The position numbers and the translations under genes were made by a program. 64,000 nucleotides of DNA from Veillonellales bacterium (GTDB lineage: Bacteria > Bacillota > Negativicutes > JAAYSF01): contig JBDKTO010000051.1 in assembly GCA_039680175.1 (NCBI GenBank), positions 1-64,000 on the forward strand. The letters are read 5' to 3'. Below, one piece after another: positions 52,923 to 64,000 of the stretch. Within the stretch, counting starts at the first letter, position 1; each line of letters starts with the position of its first letter. The notes beneath the pieces are model-generated. The model did no database searches, was not told where the DNA came from, and saw only the letters and a list, made by a program, of their open reading frames with translations.

Positions 52923-52998
52923 TAGCAGGTAAAATTTAAGTTATGCCGAAAGGATCATTTATTCAGATATGATTGGACTCATTTATAAGGAGTACGAC

Positions 52999-53358
52999 AT
53001 GGTGTGTATTGCTCAATTGAGACAGGATATCATGAAGATTAATAATGCAATTAATACGAAAATGTATGGCAGAGGTCTTATTCGGCAGAAAGTTTGTTTT
53101 TTGGAAGAAGAGAATATAATCTTAATCATTGCCAACAATCAAAGGGTGCCTGCGTTGGCGGCATTAGACAGTAAAGATCGTACAGCGACCCGACTGTTTG
53201 ATATGACATTACTTAAAGAGTTTTCGGAAAGATTGAAGGAAGAACTTTCTATTACACTTGGATTATCGATAAAATGTATTTTAAAAGACTACGATCCGGT
53301 TTGTGAATTAGCAGTTACAACAATTGTTTTAGAAAAGAGGATAATTGATAAAAAATAA
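52999..53358 (+). CDS. DUF2294 family protein
   Basis: The protein is about 119 aa. LRQDIMKINNAINTKMYGRG at the start and LKEELSITLGLSIKCILKDY with DP in the last third match the DUF2294 family (about 115-120 aa), of unknown function. ATG 52999 follows AAGGAG at 6 nt; the upstream ATG 52969 lacks an SD. It stands alone before the catabolic cluster. Confidence 0.7.
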   Translation: MVCIAQLRQDIMKINNAINTKMYGRGLIRQKVCFLEEENIILIIANNQRVPALAALDSKDRTATRLFDMTLLKEFSERLKEELSITLGLSIKCILKDYDPVCELAVTTIVLEKRIIDKK

Positions 53359-53579: not shown

Positions 53580-54653
53580 GTGAAAAGGGCTGAAAGGAAT
53601 ACTAATGTTTTTATTACAGAGGGGGATGAAGTGGTGGAAACAAACGGGAGGACAAAGGTAAAAGATGTATTAACAGTGCTTGATAAAATTACCGGTGGCA
53701 GATGTGTGAAAAATCTAAGTGATATTTTTGAAGGGAAAAACCCTTTTGTCGTAGTAAAGTCTTCCAATATTCCTGGTAAGCAATGTATGGAAACCCCAGG
53801 TTTTGTCTGCGGTAATTTGGAAGCACCGGTACACAAAATTGCTGTGACCATGACATTGACGGAGTGTAATATTGAATTGGCCGGGGCTATCGGTATTGAT
53901 GTTATTATTGCGCACCATCCGATTGTGGAGGCGGCTAATTCCGGGGGAGTGACTTTGCGAAATTATTTGGCTCTTTATGGAATCTCAGTGTTTGAACTTC
54001 ATGAGGCATTTCATGGTCTGCACCCCGGGATTGCATTGCTTCACGGACACAAGGCATTTCGGGTAGATATTGCCTATGGCGGTATACCGGGAAATATTTT
54101 ATATGTGGGGAAAGCCTTGGAAGAGGTAGATACTTTAGGAGATATTTTAGAGCGACTGGATACCTTTATGGGGCTTGAAGAGGAGAATAAGGTCTTGATT
54201 GCGGAGAGATCATGCCGGGGCTGCGATTGCATTAGCGAAACGAATGTTGCTACAGGCGGAAAAATATTGCTGGGTACCCGTAAGGATAAGGTGGACACTA
54301 TTATTCATATTTTTCCGCACACTGGGTTTAGCCCTAAACATCTTGAACAGGTGAAAAAAGAGCATCCTGAGGCCGACACTGTATTGGCGTCCATCAGCCG
54401 CGTCCGACCCGACAGTGAGCTAGTGGAAAAAGCGAAAGAATTAAAAATGAATTTTATTGTAGGGAATTCTCATGCCATGGAAATTTTGGAAAATGGGCTG
54501 CCGTTGGCGAAAGCGATTGAAAAACAGCTTCCTGATGTAGAAGTGGTCCTGTTTAGAGAGCGTATTACCTCAACTCCTTTAGCGATGGCAGGAACAAAAG
54601 CAGTGCGAGAATACGCCGCCGACATTGCGGAACGGTTTCTTCAACCAAAGTAG
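53580..54653 (+). CDS. NIF3/DUF34-like metal-binding protein
   Basis: The protein is 357 aa. The dinuclear metal motifs of NIF3 are visible: IIAHHPIVEAAN near residue 112, HIFPHTGFSP and IVGNSHAMEILENGLPLAKA later. The KVKDVLTVLDKITGG start is typical. GTG 53580 follows AAGGAAGG; GTG 53631 or 53634 after GAGGGGG are alternatives. It is longer than some family members. It is the first gene of the catabolic cluster; what it acts on is unknown. Confidence 0.8.
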   Translation: MKRAERNTNVFITEGDEVVETNGRTKVKDVLTVLDKITGGRCVKNLSDIFEGKNPFVVVKSSNIPGKQCMETPGFVCGNLEAPVHKIAVTMTLTECNIELAGAIGIDVIIAHHPIVEAANSGGVTLRNYLALYGISVFELHEAFHGLHPGIALLHGHKAFRVDIAYGGIPGNILYVGKALEEVDTLGDILERLDTFMGLEEENKVLIAERSCRGCDCISETNVATGGKILLGTRKDKVDTIIHIFPHTGFSPKHLEQVKKEHPEADTVLASISRVRPDSELVEKAKELKMNFIVGNSHAMEILENGLPLAKAIEKQLPDVEVVLFRERITSTPLAMAGTKAVREYAADIAERFLQPK

Positions 54654-54677
54654 TGAAATATAACGGAGGTATGAACG

Positions 54678-55778
54678 ATGAGTGAGAATAACAATGCCGA
54701 AACTGTAAAAAAGGCTTCGCTGAAAAGAGAAATGAAGCCCATCGAATATCTAGGGTTTGTATTGGTAGTTTTAGCATTAATCGCACTATTCTATTTTCCT
54801 GCACCGGTCGCCGGCGCGTTTACAGCGGCGGCGGCTAAGGTTAAATCCGTTTGCTTTGATGCGTTTTTAATGAATATTGTTGGGTGGGCAATTATTTGCG
54901 GTGTTATTTTAGGACGATTAATGGAACGGGCCGGTTTTACCGATGCGTTAATTCGGATATTTGTTCCTATTACCCAGCGAATTGGCGTGAATCCCGCGGT
55001 TGTGGTACCCGCTATTTATCACATTATAGGGGATATTAATGCCGCGGGCAGAATAGCCGGGCCGACGGTGAAAAAAGCTGGGGCGACTAGAGATGAACAG
55101 AAAATTGCAATCGCGACAATGGTTCAGTCACAACAGTCATTTTCTACATTTATGCTGGGCCTTGTCGCCCTCACATTAGCGAACATCAATCCGTTTCCCC
55201 TGATTATTATTGCGATCTTTCTGCCGATTGTCGTTGTGCCGTTTATTCTTAAAAACACAATTTGGCGGGATACGAAAGGCGTTCCGTTGAGTGAACTGCC
55301 GCGATTTACTCCTGAGACGCCATGGATGAGTGTTTTATTCGGAGCGGCAAAAGAGGGGGCCGAGGTTCTGTTCCTGATTGTTATACCGGCTGCTGCTGCG
55401 GTGTTTGCTATTATCGGCGCCTTGGAATACGCCGGGATATGGCAGGTGATTCAAGGGTGGATCACGGTAGCTTTAAATGCGATTTCCGTTGATGTCGAAA
55501 CCGGGACAGTCACCATTCTAGCCGCGCCAACTTTGGCTATGGGCATGCTGACAAAGACGGCGGCGACGATTCCGCCTAAAATGGTGGTTGGTTCGTTTGT
55601 CTTGGCGGCTTCGGGATTTCCGATTGGAGTAATGTTGGGGCAGATCCCCATGATTTGGAAGGGAGTATCCGATTTGACGGAAGCGGAAGCGGCGAAAGCC
55701 GCCTGTTTAGGTATTGGAATGCGGATTATTACTGCATGGCTGGTGGCCGAGTTTTTAACGCCTTTCATCATGAGGTAG
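54678..55778 (+). CDS. Nucleoside-recognition (Gate) domain membrane transporter
   Basis: The protein is 366 aa with about nine hydrophobic helices. VGWAIICGVILGRLMERAGF and the Gate-type YHIIGDINAAGRIAGPTVKK lie in the first half; the C-terminal half repeats the fold. SD CGGAGG. It is 24 nt after the NIF3-like gene and likely co-transcribed. The substrate is unknown; context suggests an amino acid or related amine. Confidence 0.75.
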   Translation: MSENNNAETVKKASLKREMKPIEYLGFVLVVLALIALFYFPAPVAGAFTAAAAKVKSVCFDAFLMNIVGWAIICGVILGRLMERAGFTDALIRIFVPITQRIGVNPAVVVPAIYHIIGDINAAGRIAGPTVKKAGATRDEQKIAIATMVQSQQSFSTFMLGLVALTLANINPFPLIIIAIFLPIVVVPFILKNTIWRDTKGVPLSELPRFTPETPWMSVLFGAAKEGAEVLFLIVIPAAAAVFAIIGALEYAGIWQVIQGWITVALNAISVDVETGTVTILAAPTLAMGMLTKTAATIPPKMVVGSFVLAASGFPIGVMLGQIPMIWKGVSDLTEAEAAKAACLGIGMRIITAWLVAEFLTPFIMR

Positions 55779-55783
55779 ATAGT

Positions 55784-55818
55784 AACTATGGCAGGGGTAT
55801 AGCCCCGGATTCATAGTT
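55784..55818. terminator. Hairpin between convergent genes
   Basis: AACTATG (55784-55790) pairs with CATAGTT (55812-55818), with an inner GGGG/CCCC pair. No strong T run, so termination is likely weak or factor-assisted. Confidence 0.55.
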
Positions 55819-55833
55819 GACGTACGGAATTTA

Positions 55834-56280
55834 TTAGCAAGGAATCTTAATCAAGTAGTTGCCGCGGGATGTCCAATCAATGGCAACATCGGGACGAAGC
55901 AGGGGAATCTCGGTGGGCATCCCGCCATCGGCAGCGACTGCAAGGGACAGATAGTAGGCAAGTTGTCCTTGGTCAAGAATTACATTTGTTTCCAATGCAA
56001 CGGTTAGTTCTTTTAGCTGATTTTCTTCCAGCGACAAGGGCGCTGATTCAGCAGCCTCTAACGGACCAAGCCCTGCCGGAAGATCATCTAAAGCATATTG
56101 TTTTGTGCGGCCAAAGCCGGCAATCCGTTTACCTGGTAAAATGAAATCGTTCAGATTATACTGATCCCGGCCGGAGGTTTCGGGGATAACCTGCCCGTTG
56201 TTTACCAGAGCAACTGAAAAATAGTCACCGTTGTTGACCTCAAGCTGATGTTCCGTTTTGATTTCCATGGACAGACGCAT
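55834..56280 (-). CDS. Hypothetical protein, 148 aa
   Basis: ATG at 56280 has a near-perfect SD (AGGAGGG, 7-nt spacing), so I take it as real. The protein is acidic to neutral, with NNGDYFSVALVNNGQVIPET at the start and TEIPLLRPDVAIDWTSRGNY near the end. I recognise no family, signal peptide or membrane helix. It is the only leftward gene in the 53-64 kb cluster and converges on the transporter. Confidence 0.65.
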   Translation of the reverse strand: MRLSMEIKTEHQLEVNNGDYFSVALVNNGQVIPETSGRDQYNLNDFILPGKRIAGFGRTKQYALDDLPAGLGPLEAAESAPLSLEENQLKELTVALETNVILDQGQLAYYLSLAVAADGGMPTEIPLLRPDVAIDWTSRGNYLIKIPC

Positions 56281-56629
56281 TAGTTTTCCCTCCTAATACT
56301 TTCTCGCGTTTTCTCGTATCAAAATATGCAAGAATGTTAAAAGTGTGAGTATCCTTACTTGTGGGGGAGGAAAAAATTAGTGCGGGTCGAAAATGATTAG
56401 AGACTTGTGCATTGATGCCCAGATAGGCTCAGGCGGATATATTCTGCAGTTAGTTGCTACGGTTTTTCTGATGATCACAAAATTGTTAAAATATTTTTAA
56501 TATAATGTTATTTTGTGCAGGAAAAAAAGAAGAACCAGCGAAGTAGTACTCATCATAAATGAGCGATGAGACGTACTCAATTTCATGAGCGCTATAATGT
56601 CTCATTGAAGTAAAAAGGAGGAGGATATT
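56281..56629 (+). promoter_or_regulatory. Regulatory region B (349 nt) before the FAD oxidoreductase
   Basis: The left part holds the leftward promoter of the hypothetical gene. The right part has TATAAT (56501-56506) followed by TTTGTGCAGGAAAAAA (56512-56527). Then come palindromes CTCATCATAAATGAG (56549-56563) and CTCAATTTCATGAG (56576-56589). GAGAC/GTCTC repeats flank the second. No gene is seen in this stretch. Confidence 0.55.
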
Positions 56630-57970
56630 ATGGCTAAAAAAGTAGTAATTGTTGGTGGGGGATGGGCAGGCTGCGGCGCCGCATTAGCGGCTCGGAAAGC
56701 AGGCTGCGATGTAGAATTATTTGAGCGGGCAGATATGCTGCTTGGTACCGGACTGGTTGGCGGGATTATGCGCAATAATGGACGGTTCACCGTTGCCGAG
56801 GAAATGCTTGCTATGGGTGGCGGCGATCTGTTTACCATTACGGATGAAAATGCCCGTCACAGAAACATTGATTTTCCCGGGCATAAGCATGCATCGCTTT
56901 ACGATGTATGTACCATTGAACCCGCTGTGCGCAAGGCACTGCTGGCTGCCGGGGTAAAGGTTCATCTTAAGGCCCGTGTTAAGGATGCTATTGTGGAAGA
57001 TGGTAAGATTGTAAAGGTTATCGCTGATGTATTCCATAGTGGTGAAGTGATTGAAGCCACGGGTGACGCTTTCGTCGATGTCTCTGGTACTGCCGGTCCC
57101 CAAGTCAATTGTATGAAGCATGGTAATGGCTGCGCCATGTGTATCTATCGCTGCCCGACCTTTGGTCCCCGCTTCAGCATTGCCGCCAAAGCCGGCATTA
57201 AAGAGATGATCGGTGAAAAAGCGGACGGTAGTTTTGGTGCTATGAGCGGTTCATGCAAACTTCACAAAGATTCCTTAGCACCCGCGGTGAGAGAGGAGCT
57301 GGATAAGACTGGCGTTTGCGTCATTCCGGTGCCTAAGAATCTCCAGAAAAGCATGTCGGATCTTGCGCAAAAAGCCTGTCAACAATATGCGCTGAAGGAG
57401 TTTGCTGAGAATATTGTTTTACTGGATACCGGCCACGCAAAACTGATGTCTGCTTATTATCCAATTGAAATGCTTCGCCAGATCCCTGGTTGTGAGAATG
57501 CCCGTTTTGAGGATCCCTATTCCGGCGGCATTGGCAACTCCATGCGTTATTTCGGAATGCTGCCCCGCGACAATGCTCTCAAGGTAGAAGGACTGAAAAA
57601 TGTCTTTTGCGGCGGAGAAAAAGCCGGGTTGTTGGTAGGCCATACCGAAGCAATTATTACGGGAACTCTTGCTGGTCATAATGCTGCAAGATGCGCATTG
57701 AGGCTGGATATGATCGAGATTCCCCGGAGTCTGGCCTGCGGCGAAGGCATAGCTCATGTAAAAGAAAGAATGCAGACGAAAGAAGGGTTAACTAAGAAAT
57801 ATACCTTCTCAGGTTCGGTGCTATTTGATCATATGAGGAGCAAAGATTTGTATACCACTAACGTTCAAAAAATTAAGGAAAACGTTAAGAACGCCAATAT
57901 GATAGACTTTTTCGCAAAGAATCTTACGGGTTATCGTTCGGAAGCGGCTGCAACTAGAACGGATCAATAA
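56630..57970 (+). CDS. FAD-dependent oxidoreductase
   Basis: The protein is 446 aa. The Rossmann FAD motif VVIVGGGWAGCGAALAARKA is at the N-terminus, ATGDAFVDVSGTAGPQ in the middle and the second FAD contact NVFCGGEKAGLLVGHTEAII near residue 325. It resembles the FAD-binding part of GidA/MnmG-like and FAD-dependent dehydrogenases, without their RNA-binding C-terminus. The run NGCAMCIYRCPTFG has two Cys that might bind metal or be redox active. SD AGGAGGAGG. Confidence 0.82.
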   Translation: MAKKVVIVGGGWAGCGAALAARKAGCDVELFERADMLLGTGLVGGIMRNNGRFTVAEEMLAMGGGDLFTITDENARHRNIDFPGHKHASLYDVCTIEPAVRKALLAAGVKVHLKARVKDAIVEDGKIVKVIADVFHSGEVIEATGDAFVDVSGTAGPQVNCMKHGNGCAMCIYRCPTFGPRFSIAAKAGIKEMIGEKADGSFGAMSGSCKLHKDSLAPAVREELDKTGVCVIPVPKNLQKSMSDLAQKACQQYALKEFAENIVLLDTGHAKLMSAYYPIEMLRQIPGCENARFEDPYSGGIGNSMRYFGMLPRDNALKVEGLKNVFCGGEKAGLLVGHTEAIITGTLAGHNAARCALRLDMIEIPRSLACGEGIAHVKERMQTKEGLTKKYTFSGSVLFDHMRSKDLYTTNVQKIKENVKNANMIDFFAKNLTGYRSEAAATRTDQ

Positions 57971-58003
57971 GTAGTTGAAGTACATATTTTGTTTTTCCCG
58001 GCA

Positions 58004-58031
58004 AAGGCATAGAGAGGTTACTCTATGCCTT
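58004..58031 (+). terminator. Hairpin after the FAD oxidoreductase
   Basis: AAGGCATAGAG (58004-58014) and CTCTATGCCTT (58021-58031) form a perfect 11-bp stem without a clear T run. Confidence 0.5.
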
Positions 58032-58102
58032 GTCGTGTGAAACATCCGATTTCGAGCGATGCCAGTTTAGTCACTAAATGTTAAATGGGGGAGGATTCTA
58101 CA

Positions 58103-59506
58103 ATGCAACAAGTTGCGACATTGTCACTTGCGGATTGGGTCTTTATGTTTTTTGTAATTGTTACCTTGGGCTGTTTGGCGACACGTCGGGATGCTTTGCT
58201 GCCGACTTCCGTGGGACTGTTAGTGGTTGGGTCGATTCTTAAGGGGAGTATTATTGGTGGACTTATGGTGTCATTTAATGCCATTTTGGCGTCTACTACC
58301 GACTTATTAAATATTATCATTGTCATAGCTATGGTTGTTATGATGACCAAAACAATGGAAGATATGGGTTCAGACCGCCTGATGGTTGCTCCTCTCCGTA
58401 GTTTATTAGGCAATCCCAGTGTTTCTTATTGGGTTATTGGTTTTGCAATGCTAATTCTTTCCTGGTTTATTTGGCCTACGCCGGCTGTTGCCCTATTGGG
58501 TGCGCTTGTTTTGCCTCTGGCGATTGTTGGCGGTTTACCACCTATCATTGCTGGTATGTCGCTATCAATTTTTGGTAAAGGCATCGCTTTGTCAAGTGAC
58601 TTTATTATTCAGGGCACGCCATCCATAACTTCCAAAATGACAGGAATACCGGTTGGTGACATTATGTCCGCCAGTATTCCCGTATGGGCAACGGTTTCTC
58701 TTGTTGCGGCCGTTAGTGCTTTCTATATTGCGCACAAGGCTATAAAAGCCAGCAAAGGCAAAGAAATTGAGAATACTTCCAGCAGCCAAGAAATGGCGAA
58801 AAGGGCTGCTGCCGCTACGGCCACTATTAACGCCAGCCCAATTGGCAGAGTGATGGCATGGATTATCCCGCTGGCCCTGCTGCTGGATGTTTTCTTTATG
58901 TTTAAACTGGGACTGAAAGGCGGCGCGGCGACCGCTCTTGTCGGCGGTACTACGCTGGCTATTACCATGATTAGTGCTTGTTTTCAGTATAAGGACGATG
59001 CTTTCTCCAAAGTGATGAATCATGCCCGTCAAGGCTGGATGTTTGCCGTAAAAGTATTTGGACCGGTTGTAATTATCGCCGGATTCTTTTGGTTAGGCGG
59101 CGATTCACTGAAAGATATCCTAAAGGATAAAAATGTTCAGGGCCTAATGTTTGACTGGGGGTACTTTATTGCCGCCCATGTACCGATTAATACCTTTATG
59201 GTATCTTTAATGGTGACTATTGCCGGCATACTAGCCGCTTTCGACGGCTCCGGCTATGCGGCCATTCCTCTGGGAGCAAGCATAGCTATGGCTCTTGGTA
59301 CGCCAATTGGTGCCGATGTATCTATCCTGGCTTCTCAAGCCCAAATGGCTGCTATTTGGACAGGCGCCACTTTGGTTCCCTGGGGCTTCCTTGCGGTTAC
59401 CGCATCTTTCGCCGGCGTTGACCCGGCTGACTTGGCACGACGCAACATGTGGCCAACCCTGCTGGGCTTGGGCGCGGGTGTTATCGTCACCACGTTTCTG
59501 GCGTAA
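58103..59506 (+). CDS. Ion transporter (IT) superfamily-type permease
   Basis: The protein is about 467 aa with 11-12 hydrophobic helices. LSLADWVFMFFVIVTLGCLA is the first. The FDGSGYAAIPLGASIAMALG loop near residue 385 resembles re-entrant segments of IT-superfamily carriers such as GntP, CitM or NhaC-type proteins. Subfamily and substrate are not clear. ATG 58103 follows GGGGGAGG at 8 nt (ATG 58085 lies before this SD). It is probably the second uptake system of the cluster. Confidence 0.75.
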   Translation: MQQVATLSLADWVFMFFVIVTLGCLATRRDALLPTSVGLLVVGSILKGSIIGGLMVSFNAILASTTDLLNIIIVIAMVVMMTKTMEDMGSDRLMVAPLRSLLGNPSVSYWVIGFAMLILSWFIWPTPAVALLGALVLPLAIVGGLPPIIAGMSLSIFGKGIALSSDFIIQGTPSITSKMTGIPVGDIMSASIPVWATVSLVAAVSAFYIAHKAIKASKGKEIENTSSSQEMAKRAAAATATINASPIGRVMAWIIPLALLLDVFFMFKLGLKGGAATALVGGTTLAITMISACFQYKDDAFSKVMNHARQGWMFAVKVFGPVVIIAGFFWLGGDSLKDILKDKNVQGLMFDWGYFIAAHVPINTFMVSLMVTIAGILAAFDGSGYAAIPLGASIAMALGTPIGADVSILASQAQMAAIWTGATLVPWGFLAVTASFAGVDPADLARRNMWPTLLGLGAGVIVTTFLA

Positions 59507-59746
59507 TTTCAAATATGTGGAGACCAAACATACAAATCATCAAAGATGATGAATCTTTTTAAAAATATTGTTAGAAAAATTCGTAAAGGGTTGCAGAAAC
59601 AGCTGGGTTGATTTATACTAATAGTAGGTCATCAAAGATGAGCGATGATCGAGAGCTTAATTGAAAAATCTAATAGGGTCATATTATGGGTTAACACTAC
59701 TCATTAATGGTGAGTTACTAATGGGTGAGATATTGGAGGGAGTATC
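59507..59746 (+). promoter_or_regulatory. Regulatory region C (240 nt) before the B12 mutase operon
   Basis: ATCATCAAAGATGAT (59536-59550) with a following CTTTTT probably ends the transporter transcript. TCATCAAAGATGA (59629-59641) and ACTCATTAATGGTGAGT (59699-59715) match the palindrome seen in regions A and B. TTGCAG (59591-59596) could be a -35 box. No gene seen. Confidence 0.55.
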
Positions 59747-59992
59747 GTGTTAAGATCCTTAAACCAAGTGATGGATGCGCTCGACATAGAGACTTTCTTT
59801 ATCTGCCAAAGTGAACAGGAAGGTAAAAACCTGATGTTGAGTCTGCTGACGAATATGGGCTTTAAAGATATTGATATTGTGTTTGCTCAATATGCAGGCC
59901 CCGGCGCCCGCATTAGGGGCAGGGCCTATGTGCATCGTCCTGCGGATCAATACAGATGGCTGTTTGCCGATACTGGAAAGGAAGGGGAATAA
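59747..59992 (+). CDS. Small protein, 81 aa, companion of the B12 mutase
   Basis: GTG 59747 follows GGAGGG. The protein has an N-terminal helical stretch (LRSLNQVMDALDIETFFICQ) and a C-terminal GPGARIRGRAYVHRP. No family recognised. It ends 2 nt before the mutase start, so the two are translated together. It may be a small mutase subunit or chaperone (inference). Confidence 0.65.
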   Translation: MLRSLNQVMDALDIETFFICQSEQEGKNLMLSLLTNMGFKDIDIVFAQYAGPGARIRGRAYVHRPADQYRWLFADTGKEGE

Positions 59993-59994
59993 GT

Positions 59995-61866
59995 ATGAAA
60001 TGCAAAGTGATGCTTGTTCCTATTGATCCGGTTCATGATATCGGGTTAAAAATGATCGCCAGAGGTTTGATAGAGAAAGGTCATGAAATCATAATGCTGC
60101 CGCCGGATCTAGCGATGGAAGAAATCGTCGAGCAAGTGCTCAGAACAAAAAATGTTGACACACTCTTGATGAGCCGGACGCTGGGCTACGGTGTCGGGGA
60201 ATTATTGGCCCGCTTTATTGATCTTGTCGACTCAACAGGAATTCGGGAAAAAGTCAAGATTGGTATCGGCGGAATGGCCATTAGGCCTGAGCTTGCGGCT
60301 GAATTGGGCTTTGATGCCGGTTTTGGCCCCGGGACAACGGTGGAAGAAACAATATGCTTTGTGGAAGGCCGGGAATATACACCTGATACACTGCGAACTC
60401 AAAAGGTTAAGCAAGACATGACAGCAGGGTATGACTACGCCTATCATAGTACGTTAATCGGCGATGAGCTGCATTCCATTACCGATATGATTCTGGACTG
60501 GGTCGACGATAAGACATCACCAGGCGTCGAGCGGGCTAAAGTACGCGATGAACTTTGGGATATAGAAAGATGGCGCAGCCGCCAAGGTAATCCGGAATTT
60601 GACAAAGTCTATCCTGGCCTATGCGGCGAGATCCCTCGCCGCTACTACCAGACAGGTGAATTACATCCCAAGACTCGACGCTTTACAGTCGATGAAGTGC
60701 AGGCTTTTGAAAGATATCAAAAAGAAACAAAGTCCCGGATGTCAGTAATGAAACTGCAGCATACGCGTAAAAAGCCAATGATATTTAATCAGTACGGTAC
60801 AGGATGTCCTTTTATGGATATCGGTCATGTAATAGCCAGCGAAGCGTGGGGGGCGGATGGTGTAGTTCATTTCGATCCTTCGTGGGGGGCAAGAACGGAA
60901 GGGTTTCTGGACGGGTTTTTAACCCATCAGGAGGATGGAACAGTTATTACCCCGGCGAACCTTAATCGTATTCATGGGGGATTGGAAAAGTCTACATTGT
61001 GGCAGGTTCGGGCGCATCGGGGCCTTAATACCCCGGAGACGGTTGTGCTGGCGGGAAAGATAGGCGCTGATTTGACGAAGATTAACATTTGCTATGGGGC
61101 GCTGGGGGCCGGCACTGATCCGGAACGAATGACTGTCGACGGTTATCATTCAATCTTATATGCCGCAAAGTACAATATGCCTTTTGACGTAGTAACAAAT
61201 GAAGAACTGTGCGGGGTTCCGTCATACAAGGCGTTTGCCGGCATGCTGATTGTCGCTGATCTAGCGAGAAGACTTGGCGCCCGGCCCATTTTACAGCCCC
61301 TTTTCGCTTATTCGCCGGAAGTGATGATTCACGGATATATGGAAGACAACTATATTGATTTCAATGCCGCAAAAGTGTTCGCGTTACGAAGCATTATTAA
61401 TGCACCTATCTGGCCCGGGGCACCAATCGGTTTCTTGACTCATACCGAAGACCGTGTGCAGTCGGCGATGACGACGGCACTGCATACTTGTCTGGGTTCA
61501 TCACTAGGTGTTGATGCTGTCTCTATTGCTTCTACTGACGAGGCATATTCCGGCGGGCCGATTACCATTCCGGCCAAAATAGACACACTGCGTGCGGTCG
61601 CGGAAAGTCTTCGTTTCATGGGCCAGGCCCATATTAGAGAGACAGAACAGGCTCAGGTATATGCCGATCGCATGGTAGAGGGTATAAGCCACGTACTCTC
61701 CGACATCATCCATTGTGGTGATTTTGTTACCGCCATTCATGCGGGCCTCCTGGGAAGTAGAGAAGAAGGAGCATATCCGGGACGAACCGGTAAAGGTACA
61801 GTAACAATAAAGAAAGGGGTGTATGAATATGACAGATCCTTATGCGGCAGGGAAGCTTGTCAGTAA
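59995..61866 (+). CDS. Cobalamin-dependent carbon-skeleton mutase, glutamate mutase-like, fused B12 and TIM-barrel domains
   Basis: The protein is about 623 aa. Residues 1-130 form a B12-binding domain: DPVHDIG near residue 11 with His14 as the likely cobalt ligand (the usual D-x-H-x-x-G, with Asp one place further away), SRTLGYG and GIGGMAIRP. Residues about 200-610 resemble the catalytic barrel of glutamate mutase epsilon subunit (NQYGTGCPFMDIGHVIASEA, GGLEKSTLW). In glutamate mutase these are separate proteins with the B12 unit apart. ATG 59995 follows GGAAGGGG. The next gene starts inside its 3' end (38-nt overlap). Substrate unknown. Confidence 0.85.
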   Translation: MKCKVMLVPIDPVHDIGLKMIARGLIEKGHEIIMLPPDLAMEEIVEQVLRTKNVDTLLMSRTLGYGVGELLARFIDLVDSTGIREKVKIGIGGMAIRPELAAELGFDAGFGPGTTVEETICFVEGREYTPDTLRTQKVKQDMTAGYDYAYHSTLIGDELHSITDMILDWVDDKTSPGVERAKVRDELWDIERWRSRQGNPEFDKVYPGLCGEIPRRYYQTGELHPKTRRFTVDEVQAFERYQKETKSRMSVMKLQHTRKKPMIFNQYGTGCPFMDIGHVIASEAWGADGVVHFDPSWGARTEGFLDGFLTHQEDGTVITPANLNRIHGGLEKSTLWQVRAHRGLNTPETVVLAGKIGADLTKINICYGALGAGTDPERMTVDGYHSILYAAKYNMPFDVVTNEELCGVPSYKAFAGMLIVADLARRLGARPILQPLFAYSPEVMIHGYMEDNYIDFNAAKVFALRSIINAPIWPGAPIGFLTHTEDRVQSAMTTALHTCLGSSLGVDAVSIASTDEAYSGGPITIPAKIDTLRAVAESLRFMGQAHIRETEQAQVYADRMVEGISHVLSDIIHCGDFVTAIHAGLLGSREEGAYPGRTGKGTVTIKKGVYEYDRSLCGREACQ

Positions 61867-62263
61867 TCCCTATACAAAAAAGAGTGATGTGGCCGGTCCA
61901 TTGGTTGCAATTCTTGACGGCCGGATGGAAGACAGGGGCCTTAATTTAATGAAGCCGATTTCTCGCTGTGTTAAAACTTATGATGTGCATGAAATCATTC
62001 TTACTGATGAGCAGGAGGCCGGTCCTGGTAGGAAAGTGAACCGAATTGCTTATTTGGGTTTTTTTGAAGTGGCTGGCGGTGGCGTAATTGTCGCCGGTGA
62101 TAAAGTACTTCTTGATGATGTTTGTGTTGGTGTCTTGGCGGGTTTTGATGAGACCCATATGCCCAATCATCTCAATATTGTCATAAAGACAGATAAATTA
62201 TTAACCGGCGTAGAATGCGGGGCAGGTTTAGGTAATATAATTACCTTTAAAATAAAAACCTAA
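61829..62263 (+). CDS. Conserved hypothetical protein in mutase operon, about 144 aa
   Basis: ATG 61829 lies 8 nt after AAAGGGG, inside the last codons of the mutase gene. The protein is mostly strand-forming: LVAILDGRMEDRGLNLMKPI, YLGFFEVAGGGVIVAGDKVL and HMPNHLNIVIKTDKLLTG. I recognise no characterised family. Overlap with the mutase suggests a matched amount, for example a subunit or product-handling protein. Confidence 0.7.
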   Translation: MTDPYAAGKLVSNPYTKKSDVAGPLVAILDGRMEDRGLNLMKPISRCVKTYDVHEIILTDEQEAGPGRKVNRIAYLGFFEVAGGGVIVAGDKVLLDDVCVGVLAGFDETHMPNHLNIVIKTDKLLTGVECGAGLGNIITFKIKT

Positions 62264-62284
62264 TATCAATAGGGGAGGAAAAAG

Positions 62285-62743
62285 ATGAGTATTGAAGCTA
62301 AGCTGAAAGAGATGGGTCTGGAACTTCCGTCAGCACCAAAGCCGGTAGCGGCTTATGTTCCAGCCGTAAAGGTTGACGGGTATGTCTACACATCAGGACA
62401 GATACCTTTTGTCAATGGCGAATTAAAGTTTAAAGGTAAAGTAGGCAAGGATCTCGACGAGACACAGGGATATGAGGCGGCTAAATGCTGTGTGTTAAAT
62501 TGCCTGAGTGTAATTAAAGCACAAATCGGTGATCTTGACCGTATTGAAAAGGTGATAAAGGTTGTGGGCTTTGTAAGCAGTGCTCCAGGCTTTAATATGC
62601 AGCCTAAAATTATTAATGGTGCTTCAGAACTTTTAGGTCAATTGTTTGGTGAAAAGGGACAGCATGCCAGGTCTGCTGTCGGCGTTAGCGAATTGCCGCT
62701 TGATGCTGCCTGCGAAGTAGAATTGATTGTAAAGTTTAACTAA
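62285..62743 (+). CDS. RidA/YjgF-family protein
   Basis: The protein is 152 aa. VDGYVYTSGQIPFVNGELKF in the N-terminal part and SAVGVSELPLDAACEVELIV at the end are RidA signatures, but the usual Arg of the deaminase site reads as part of GQHARSAVG. It hydrolyses reactive enamines or imines made by PLP enzymes, fitting the next gene. SD GGGGAGG. Confidence 0.9.
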   Translation: MSIEAKLKEMGLELPSAPKPVAAYVPAVKVDGYVYTSGQIPFVNGELKFKGKVGKDLDETQGYEAAKCCVLNCLSVIKAQIGDLDRIEKVIKVVGFVSSAPGFNMQPKIINGASELLGQLFGEKGQHARSAVGVSELPLDAACEVELIVKFN

Positions 62744-62777
62744 ATATAAATACATAAATAAAGGAGAGGAATTTTCT

Positions 62778-64000
62778 ATGGCTAAATTCAAGTATAAACA
62801 TCAAATGTATCAACATCTTCTGGCGAATACTGCCAATATCTATGCCGATGCCCGGAAGGCTGCTGAAGAACTAAAAATCCCGGCAGATATTAAAGGTAAA
62901 TTTGGGATGACAGGTGGCATCTCGGGGTGTCCGGCACCGCTGAGGGACGATATGATAAAAGCAGGCGAAGAAGTATCCCAAAAGGTAATGCCTCTGGCAG
63001 GCATGGTTACTCAGATCCGCGAACTGGTTAAGGATATTTATGGCGACGAATATGACGCTGCTCCGGTTAGTACTTGCGAAGCAGGCCTATGGACGGCTTT
63101 TGGTTGTTTGTTTACGCCTCCCAGCCTTGGCATGGGTGATAACTATCGTGCTCGTTATATAGCGCCTCTGGAAAAACATTTTCATCATCAAGGCGGCTAT
63201 GGCCGGCCGTTCCCTGCTCGCTATAAAGATATGCTTGCTGACCGCGGGACTACTCCGGGTGAGCTTGGGGTATATGGCAAGCGCCAAAACAACCTGGATG
63301 TCATTGTAGTACCGCTTGCCGGTGCGAAATACGATGTTCATGGCATCAAATCCCATCCGGTTCCGATGCTGGCGAAAGTTGATCCGAAGCAGGTCTTTGA
63401 AGATATGAAAAAATTTGCCGGCATTCATGCCAGCATGCTGACTGGTATCGCATCCGTGGGCTATGATACTCCGGGCTACGGTTACGGCGTCCATGAAAAA
63501 GATGGTTGCCCAACCTTGCAAAAAATGTATGCCAAAATTGCCCAGGAATATGGTATTCCGTACGTGATTGATAATGCCTGGGGTGTACCCGGTATTGGCC
63601 ACGATATCCGTAAATCTGGTGCTGACGTTATCATCTACAGTATGGATAAGGCCAGCGGTTGTGCTACCAGCGGTCTGATTATTGGAAAAGCAGATGTTAT
63701 GGTGCCAATCCGTCGTTCATTGGGCTTCCATGGCGACAGATGGGGTTCAACCGGCTCTTATGGTAAAGCTGCTTTCGTAGGGTTTGATCCCGGGAAAGAA
63801 GCACTTGCCTCGCAAATTCAGGCATTGAAAGTATTGCGGGATAATCCTGGCGTATACACGAATGCAGTTGATGATCTGTATGATGTGGTTGTAGAAGAGT
63901 TTGCCAAGATTAATCCCAAACTTAAAACAGGCATCGTCATCAGTAAATCCTATAATTCCCGTGCAGTTGAAGTTAACTACGAAGGCACTTGGGCGAACGG
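62778..64000 (+). CDS. PLP-dependent enzyme, fold type I, partial
   Basis: At least 407 aa, open to the right window edge. ATG 62778 follows AAGGAGAGG. YVIDNAWGVPGIGHDIRKSG gives the Asp that contacts the pyridine ring, and YSMDKASGCATSGLIIG gives the probable PLP lysine. The fold resembles aminotransferase-like or SepSecS/SelA-like enzymes; FHHQGGYGRPFPARYKDM is distinctive. Reaction type (ammonia lyase, aminotransferase, racemase) cannot be fixed. It closes the visible operon with mutase and RidA. Confidence 0.82.
   Translation, partial: MAKFKYKHQMYQHLLANTANIYADARKAAEELKIPADIKGKFGMTGGISGCPAPLRDDMIKAGEEVSQKVMPLAGMVTQIRELVKDIYGDEYDAAPVSTCEAGLWTAFGCLFTPPSLGMGDNYRARYIAPLEKHFHHQGGYGRPFPARYKDMLADRGTTPGELGVYGKRQNNLDVIVVPLAGAKYDVHGIKSHPVPMLAKVDPKQVFEDMKKFAGIHASMLTGIASVGYDTPGYGYGVHEKDGCPTLQKMYAKIAQEYGIPYVIDNAWGVPGIGHDIRKSGADVIIYSMDKASGCATSGLIIGKADVMVPIRRSLGFHGDRWGSTGSYGKAAFVGFDPGKEALASQIQALKVLRDNPGVYTNAVDDLYDVVVEEFAKINPKLKTGIVISKSYNSRAVEVNYEGTWAN

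Follow-up and report, generated by a model that had tools for sequence, protein, structure and literature searches.

The 64,000-nucleotide window analysed here, positions 1-64000 of a 106-kb contig within the 4.08-Mb assembly of a Veillonellales bacterium, ends in a gene cluster centred on a cobalamin (B12)-binding barrel protein, MUT, and a small protein, S81, encoded upstream of it. The comparisons described below indicate that MUT and S81, with a new predicted architecture and within a conserved operon, probably represent an additional branch among the adenosylcobalamin (AdoCbl) mutases of class III, the aminomutase type. A reading made earlier from the sequence (the sequence-only reading) had described a B12-mutase cluster of catabolic appearance that fits none of the known pathways, and this description holds. 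Its components, namely a B12 enzyme, a pyridoxal 5’-phosphate (PLP) enzyme, a RidA protein, a flavin adenine dinucleotide (FAD) protein, two permeases, a NIF3 protein and two small open reading frames (ORFs), were all recovered at their positions by the ORF list and by Pfam/NCBIfam searches.

The barrel of MUT is closest to that of lysine 5,6-aminomutase (5,6-LAM). Profile comparison with hhalign aligned it to KamD (PF09043 members) over 418 columns at 21% identity, with Prob 90.7 and E 1.3e-6, whereas the GlmE profile of glutamate mutase (PF06368 members) reached only Prob 0.3. Unrelated control families from the same loci gave E >= 0.06; on the same scale KamD scores Prob 99.9 against OraE and 0.7 against GlmE. 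Pfam searches matched the barrel to no family, PF09043 included. An AlphaFold2 model of MUT (mean predicted local distance difference test score, pLDDT, of 89) retrieved 5,6-LAM as the top Foldseek match (1xrs, E 2.1e-17), followed by ornithine 4,5-aminomutase (OAM) and then glutamate mutase (4.7e-11), the listed order being 1xrs, 8t0v, 9q1a, OAM and GlmE. The B12 domain tells the same story: it aligns with KamE at Prob 99.6, with OraE at Prob 97.4 and with the 5,6-LAM beta subunit at E 6e-18. It also matches the B12-binding Pfam family 45 bits over the cut-off and has an invariant His14; MUT is a putative base-off/His-on AdoCbl binder.

The sequence-only reading had correctly placed the B12 domain at the N-terminus, joined to the barrel. 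S81, which lies upstream of the mutase gene in 79 of 79 relatives, resembles the N-terminal dimerisation region of KamE (hhalign Prob 79.6, E 1.5e-5, 38 columns; control families E >= 0.019), and the domain order is thus [dimer][B12-barrel], with the gene break falling after the dimer domain. The kam cluster at locus L139 instead has the barrel in one gene and dimer-B12 in another. Taken together, a barrel and a B12 domain nearest to KamD, KamE and OraE, plus a KamE-type dimerisation domain, place the pair in class III at the superfamily level. The label ‘glutamate mutase-like’ given by the sequence-only reading did not survive these comparisons, and a glutamate-mutase origin was rejected for want of profile similarity to the GlmE barrel; the host genome has no PF06368 match. 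A carbon-skeleton mutase of the glutamate- or methyleneglutarate-mutase type derived from the GlmE family would account for the presence of glutamate mutase among the Foldseek matches and for the altered PLP site described next, as glutamate mutase performs skeleton chemistry without PLP. Nevertheless, with no GlmE profile similarity and a partner of the KamB rather than the GlmL type, we regard this alternative as improbable, although a barrel of the KamD type might itself support skeleton chemistry.

MUT appears to differ from the known aminomutases in its PLP site. PLP contacts of 5,6-LAM were taken from PMC3958899. Lys144beta, the lysine that forms the imine with PLP 11 residues after the axial His, is present in all 21 KamE sequences and corresponds to Leu25 in MUT (Leu in 53 of 57 sequences, never Lys). 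R184 aligns to D294, S238 to an invariant R342 and R268 to A372; N299 falls in a gap, and G187-Q188-S189 in a deletion that accompanies the change of RTTGQS to HFDPSW. Y263 is the sole contact kept among those examined, which argues for a PLP-free branch: MUT appears, from its residues, not to hold PLP as known aminomutases do.

An ordinary PLP-dependent class III aminomutase that has moved its PLP site and catalyses a 1,2-amino shift on a diamino acid is nonetheless conceivable, for example through an imine to the invariant Lys19 or through a PLP-substrate adduct passed on by the neighbouring PLP enzyme. The nearest relatives of MUT are PLP-dependent aminomutases, that enzyme is the most constant catalytic partner of the family (70 of 79 loci), and Y263 is retained together with the PE and TEG motifs. 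However, Lys144, R184, GQS, S238 and R268 are all altered at once, although the RTTGQS, SG and R268 motifs are common to the KamD and OraE profiles, and we find this explanation unlikely. Several points weigh against a PLP-free class III branch. The loss of the site was mapped on a distant alignment (21% identity), and MUT, with its invariant K19, could bind PLP in another way. The B12 motif, D-P-V-H-D-I-G, in which D11, H14, D15 and K19 are invariant among 57 MUT sequences, has an extra residue separating Asp from His, giving D-x-x-H-x-x-G in place of D-x-H-x-x-G. Finally, the likeness of S81 to KamE spans 38 columns only.

A putative reactivase agrees with the class III assignment. The sequence-only reading had proposed looking for one beyond position 64000, and a candidate is indeed encoded just past the edge, of the KamB type and not of the MutL type. 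This P-loop protein, for which an initial DUF1611 label was dropped, has no Pfam match, and in NCBIfam it scores just below the cut-off of NF052386, the lysine 5,6-aminomutase reactivase subunit KamB. More distant KamB paralogs lie within a few kb of KamE in about eleven other genomes; at L139 the paralog is beside KamD and KamE, in what we take to be the order kdd, KamB, MutS-like KamC, KamD, KamE, kce. Since PF09043 matches nothing in the host genome, whose single KamB is the one in this operon, the partner of this KamB is most plausibly MUT. Among the conserved genes, none was recognised as KamC-like.

The cluster is widespread. Full-length mutases at 51-75% identity were found in about 40 of 398 genomes of the phylum, and a scan of genome contigs yielded 79 named loci. 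Carriers include Sporomusa, Pelosinus, Lucifera, Candidatus Formimonas, Desulfotomaculum relatives, Heliobacteria, Tepidanaerobacter, Fervidicola and Halobacteroidaceae; Pseudothermotoga, Atribacterota, a Treponema and a Candidatus Adiutrix extend the list. The mutase had no plasmid match. Co-occurrence was counted in DNA fetched around the 79 loci, much of which is cut by contig ends (Table 1), and the recurrence of the arrangement in so many places shows that it is not due to chance. The commonest same-strand neighbour pairs are S81-MUT (60), MUT-KamB (50), PLP-FAD (44), RidA-PLP (31) and DUF6917-RidA (29), and in most loci the core members have no other genes between them. The core partners are a SelA/DgaE-like PLP enzyme, RidA, DUF6917, the FAD protein and a 473-residue permease. 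The gene set of the sequence-only reading was real, but NIF3, Gate and the 148-residue ORF, with relatives in just 5, 2 and 2 of the 79 loci, are accessories and were dropped from the core.

The PLP enzyme has a weak aminotransferase V/SelA-like match in Pfam/NCBIfam; its nearest folds are Cap15, SepCysS, SelA and DgaE, and its D265 and K291 are invariant. No SelA/DgaE-like PLP gene was found at the Atribacterota locus L108; a PALP enzyme encoded there matches the D-cysteine desulfhydrase family (315 bits over 289).

The family, the architecture, the operon, the relationship to KamB and the loss of PLP-site residues are computed results; the reactions of the cluster are all ones that we infer. 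In the scheme that we propose, the operon would be catabolic and under GntR-FCD control, the permease would import an amino acid and, in operons that carry it, DapF would epimerise the substrate. MUT and S81, the latter acting as a stand-alone version of the dimerisation domain found ahead of the B12 domain in KamE, would then rearrange the amino acid by means of the 5’-deoxyadenosyl radical, with the KamB-like protein reactivating the mutase. Without PLP, a carbon group could plausibly migrate, or the substrate could bring an imine or keto group of its own. The SelA/DgaE-like enzyme would next probably eliminate from, or cleave, the mutase product, RidA would hydrolyse the enamine or imine so formed, and an oxidation would fall to the FAD protein.

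A lead to the substrate comes from Thermotogota and Atribacterota, where 9 of 103 and 4 of 50 genomes, respectively, carry the mutase. The operons of all nine Thermotogota carriers have a DapF gene upstream of S81-MUT-KamB, in some cases with other genes in between (L196 and L195-type operons), and DapF is likewise in the operon at one Atribacterota locus (L108/L203). A diaminopimelate (DAP) dehydrogenase gene sits beside DapF in L109, L118, L195 and L108; in L118, DapF scores 239 over a cut-off of 114.65 and the dehydrogenase 289.6 over 180.6. L066 has a DHDPS-family gene after KamB, and L107 has one before the PLP gene. Both catalytic cysteine motifs are kept in the operon DapF. The Atribacterota genome has a second DapF beside lysA and genes that we take to be dapA and aspartokinase; its operon DapF shares 46-48% with the Thermotogota operon copies, against 39% with this second DapF. 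We tentatively advance 2,6-diaminopimelate, or a close diaminodicarboxylate, as the leading candidate substrate. More doubtful is the full proposal of an anaerobic DAP pathway not described before, in which a PLP-free relative of lysine aminomutase would rearrange DAP by B12 radical chemistry and a new type of PLP enzyme, RidA, the FAD protein and DUF6917 would finish the route. A literature search, incomplete and with few subscription journals, returned no paper on this mutase family, DUF6917 or diaminopimelate catabolism.

The DAP assignment has evidence against it as well. The DapF-linked mutases form one clade (Shimodaira-Hasegawa-like approximate likelihood ratio test support 98), and because of this the linkage counts as one event, a lead and not a proof; the Bacillota loci all lack DapF. 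The nine Thermotogota carriers have lysA and no DapF besides the operon copy, which may therefore have a role in making lysine as well. These observations favour a catabolic operon acting on another amino acid or amine, with DapF and DAP dehydrogenase as passengers or as enzymes of lysine synthesis, a possibility to which we give somewhat less than an even chance. Set against it are the persistence of DapF beside S81-MUT across the deep split between Thermotogota and Atribacterota, the standing of the operon DapF as a subfamily of its own, beside which the Atribacterota genome has another DapF for biosynthesis, and the presence in some Thermotogota DapF operons of the same core genes as in Bacillota (DUF6917, a RidA-family protein, PLP, FAD and permease).

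The operon might alternatively salvage or detoxify a metabolite, for instance from cell-wall turnover, and not support fermentation. It occurs in organisms that use a narrow range of substrates, Heliobacterium among them, and no CoA-transferase or thiolase was recognised among the conserved genes of the loci. The GntR-FCD regulator and permease in the operon, together with the subunits of amino-acid dehydrogenase type that it includes in Thermotogota, nevertheless make salvage quite unlikely. Cell-wall genes adjoining some clusters were discarded as a clue: in the Tepidanaerobacter/Fervidicola relatives (L070, L074, L079, L080, L088) the cluster stands between D-Ala-D-Ala carboxypeptidase and pseudouridine synthase genes, which looks like an insertion site common within clades.

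Operon content varies in other respects. In Thermotogota and Atribacterota (L195, 7863-19612; L107) SoxA-type FAD, 2Fe-2S and BFD subunits are also present, along with a TRAP/TAXI transporter and one member each of the DAO and Asp/Glu racemase families. One clade (support 99; L089, L090, L091, L092, L095, L096, L100, L104, L111) has a minimal GntR-S81-MUT-PLP cluster with no KamB, FAD, DUF6917 or RidA nearby, and possibly uses a different substrate. Several genomes hold two copies (L047/L050, L048/L049, L051/L056, L057/L064, L069/L098); in two-copy Selenomonadales, KamB accompanies one copy and GntR the other.

Table 1. Genes of the cluster in the window and just beyond its edge, with the number of mutase loci (of 79) that hold a relative.
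Feature	Positions	Strand	Loci	Evidence and remarks
NIF3/DUF34-like protein, accessory	53580..54653	+	5	PF01784, 31 bits over cut-off
Gate (nucleoside-recognition) type membrane protein, accessory or alternative permease	54678..55778	+	2	PF07670, 21 bits, below cut-off
148-aa protein, accessory	55834..56280	-	2	Relatives at 27-34% in L105 and L116; no match in Pfam/NCBIfam searches
FAD oxidoreductase, GidA/TrmFO clan, core	56630..57970	+	54	PF01134 (GIDA), 96 bits
473-aa membrane permease	58085..59506	+	26	No Pfam family; no PDB relative even by profile
S81, 81-aa small mutase partner	59747..59992	+	79	Resembles KamE N-terminal dimerisation domain; no Pfam family matched in Pfam/NCBIfam searches
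MUT, 623-aa B12/barrel protein	59995..61866	+		B12 domain (res. 11-117 or 11-125) fused to KamD-like barrel (res. ~150-605); PLP-site residues lost
DUF6917 protein, core	61823..62263	+	55	PF21891, 163 bits; overlaps 3’ end of MUT
RidA/YjgF imine-enamine hydrolase family, core	62285..62743	+	41	PF14588, 85.7 bits
PLP enzyme, 487 aa, core	62778..64241 (window edge 64000)	+	70	Fold type I near SelA/SepCysS/DgaE/Cap15
GntR-FCD regulator, outside window	64619-65353		50	FCD domain
KamB-like P-loop protein, outside window	65434-66636		63	NF052386, 207.9 bits (cut-off 210)

At positions 61823-61866 of the window the MUT frame continues ~15 residues past the usual C-terminus, at low pLDDT, and runs into the beginning of DUF6917. 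Relatives of the window Gate protein lie near the mutase in L114 and L116, and L120 has another kind of Gate protein beside the cluster. A 129-residue ORF of no assigned family (52969-53358) lies upstream of NIF3. In L114 and L116 it turns up again close to the mutase, along with NIF3 and Gate; these genes, four in all, may form a separate accessory module. An Rfam scan of 52-64 kb returned no element. The translations 3’ of the KamB-like gene are presumably those of fumarase and succinate dehydrogenase genes. Elsewhere, weak glutamate mutase barrel matches (E about 1e-6 to 1e-7) occur in frames of ~565-615 residues (G115:C54:1378-2130, G079:C18, G008:C1, G055:C1, G094:C2), which are possibly another unassigned B12 mutase family.

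To our knowledge, few families of B12 radical mutases have been recognised, and the class III enzymes known to us use PLP. If our reading is true, a PLP-free branch whose domains are divided and ordered anew, spread among anaerobes of several phyla, shows how a scaffold changes its chemistry, DUF6917 and the 473-residue permease gain a probable setting, and the fate of diaminopimelate under anoxia becomes directly testable.

The components of the cluster resemble several known systems. The PLP enzyme shares with DgaE/SelA-type enzymes a fold type I core and the invariant Asp and Lys, yet it is longer than DgaE (about 365 residues) and falls far below the NCBIfam cut-offs. Glutamate mutase GlmES likewise combines B12 and a barrel and is PLP-free, as MUT appears to be, but it has a separate small B12 subunit and a different reactivase, and its barrel shows no detectable profile similarity. 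D-ornithine 4,5-aminomutase OraSE carries barrel and B12 domain in a single large chain, as MUT does, and the B12 domains can be aligned; OraE, however, starts with the barrel, ends with the B12 domain and retains both RTTGQS and the PLP lysine, and neither ord nor ortAB was seen at our cluster. D-lysine 5,6-aminomutase KamDE with KamB(C) divides its domains as KamD [barrel] and KamE [dimer-B12], whereas here the B12 domain is fused N-terminally to the barrel and the dimer domain is a separate gene. A separate PF09043 subunit, the PLP lysine, RTTGQS and R268 are all lacking, the B12 motif is D-x-x-H, and no KamC, kdd or kce was seen in the cluster. Common to both are the KamD-type barrel, the KamE-type B12 domain, a KamE-like dimer domain, a KamB-type reactivase and a catabolic operon.

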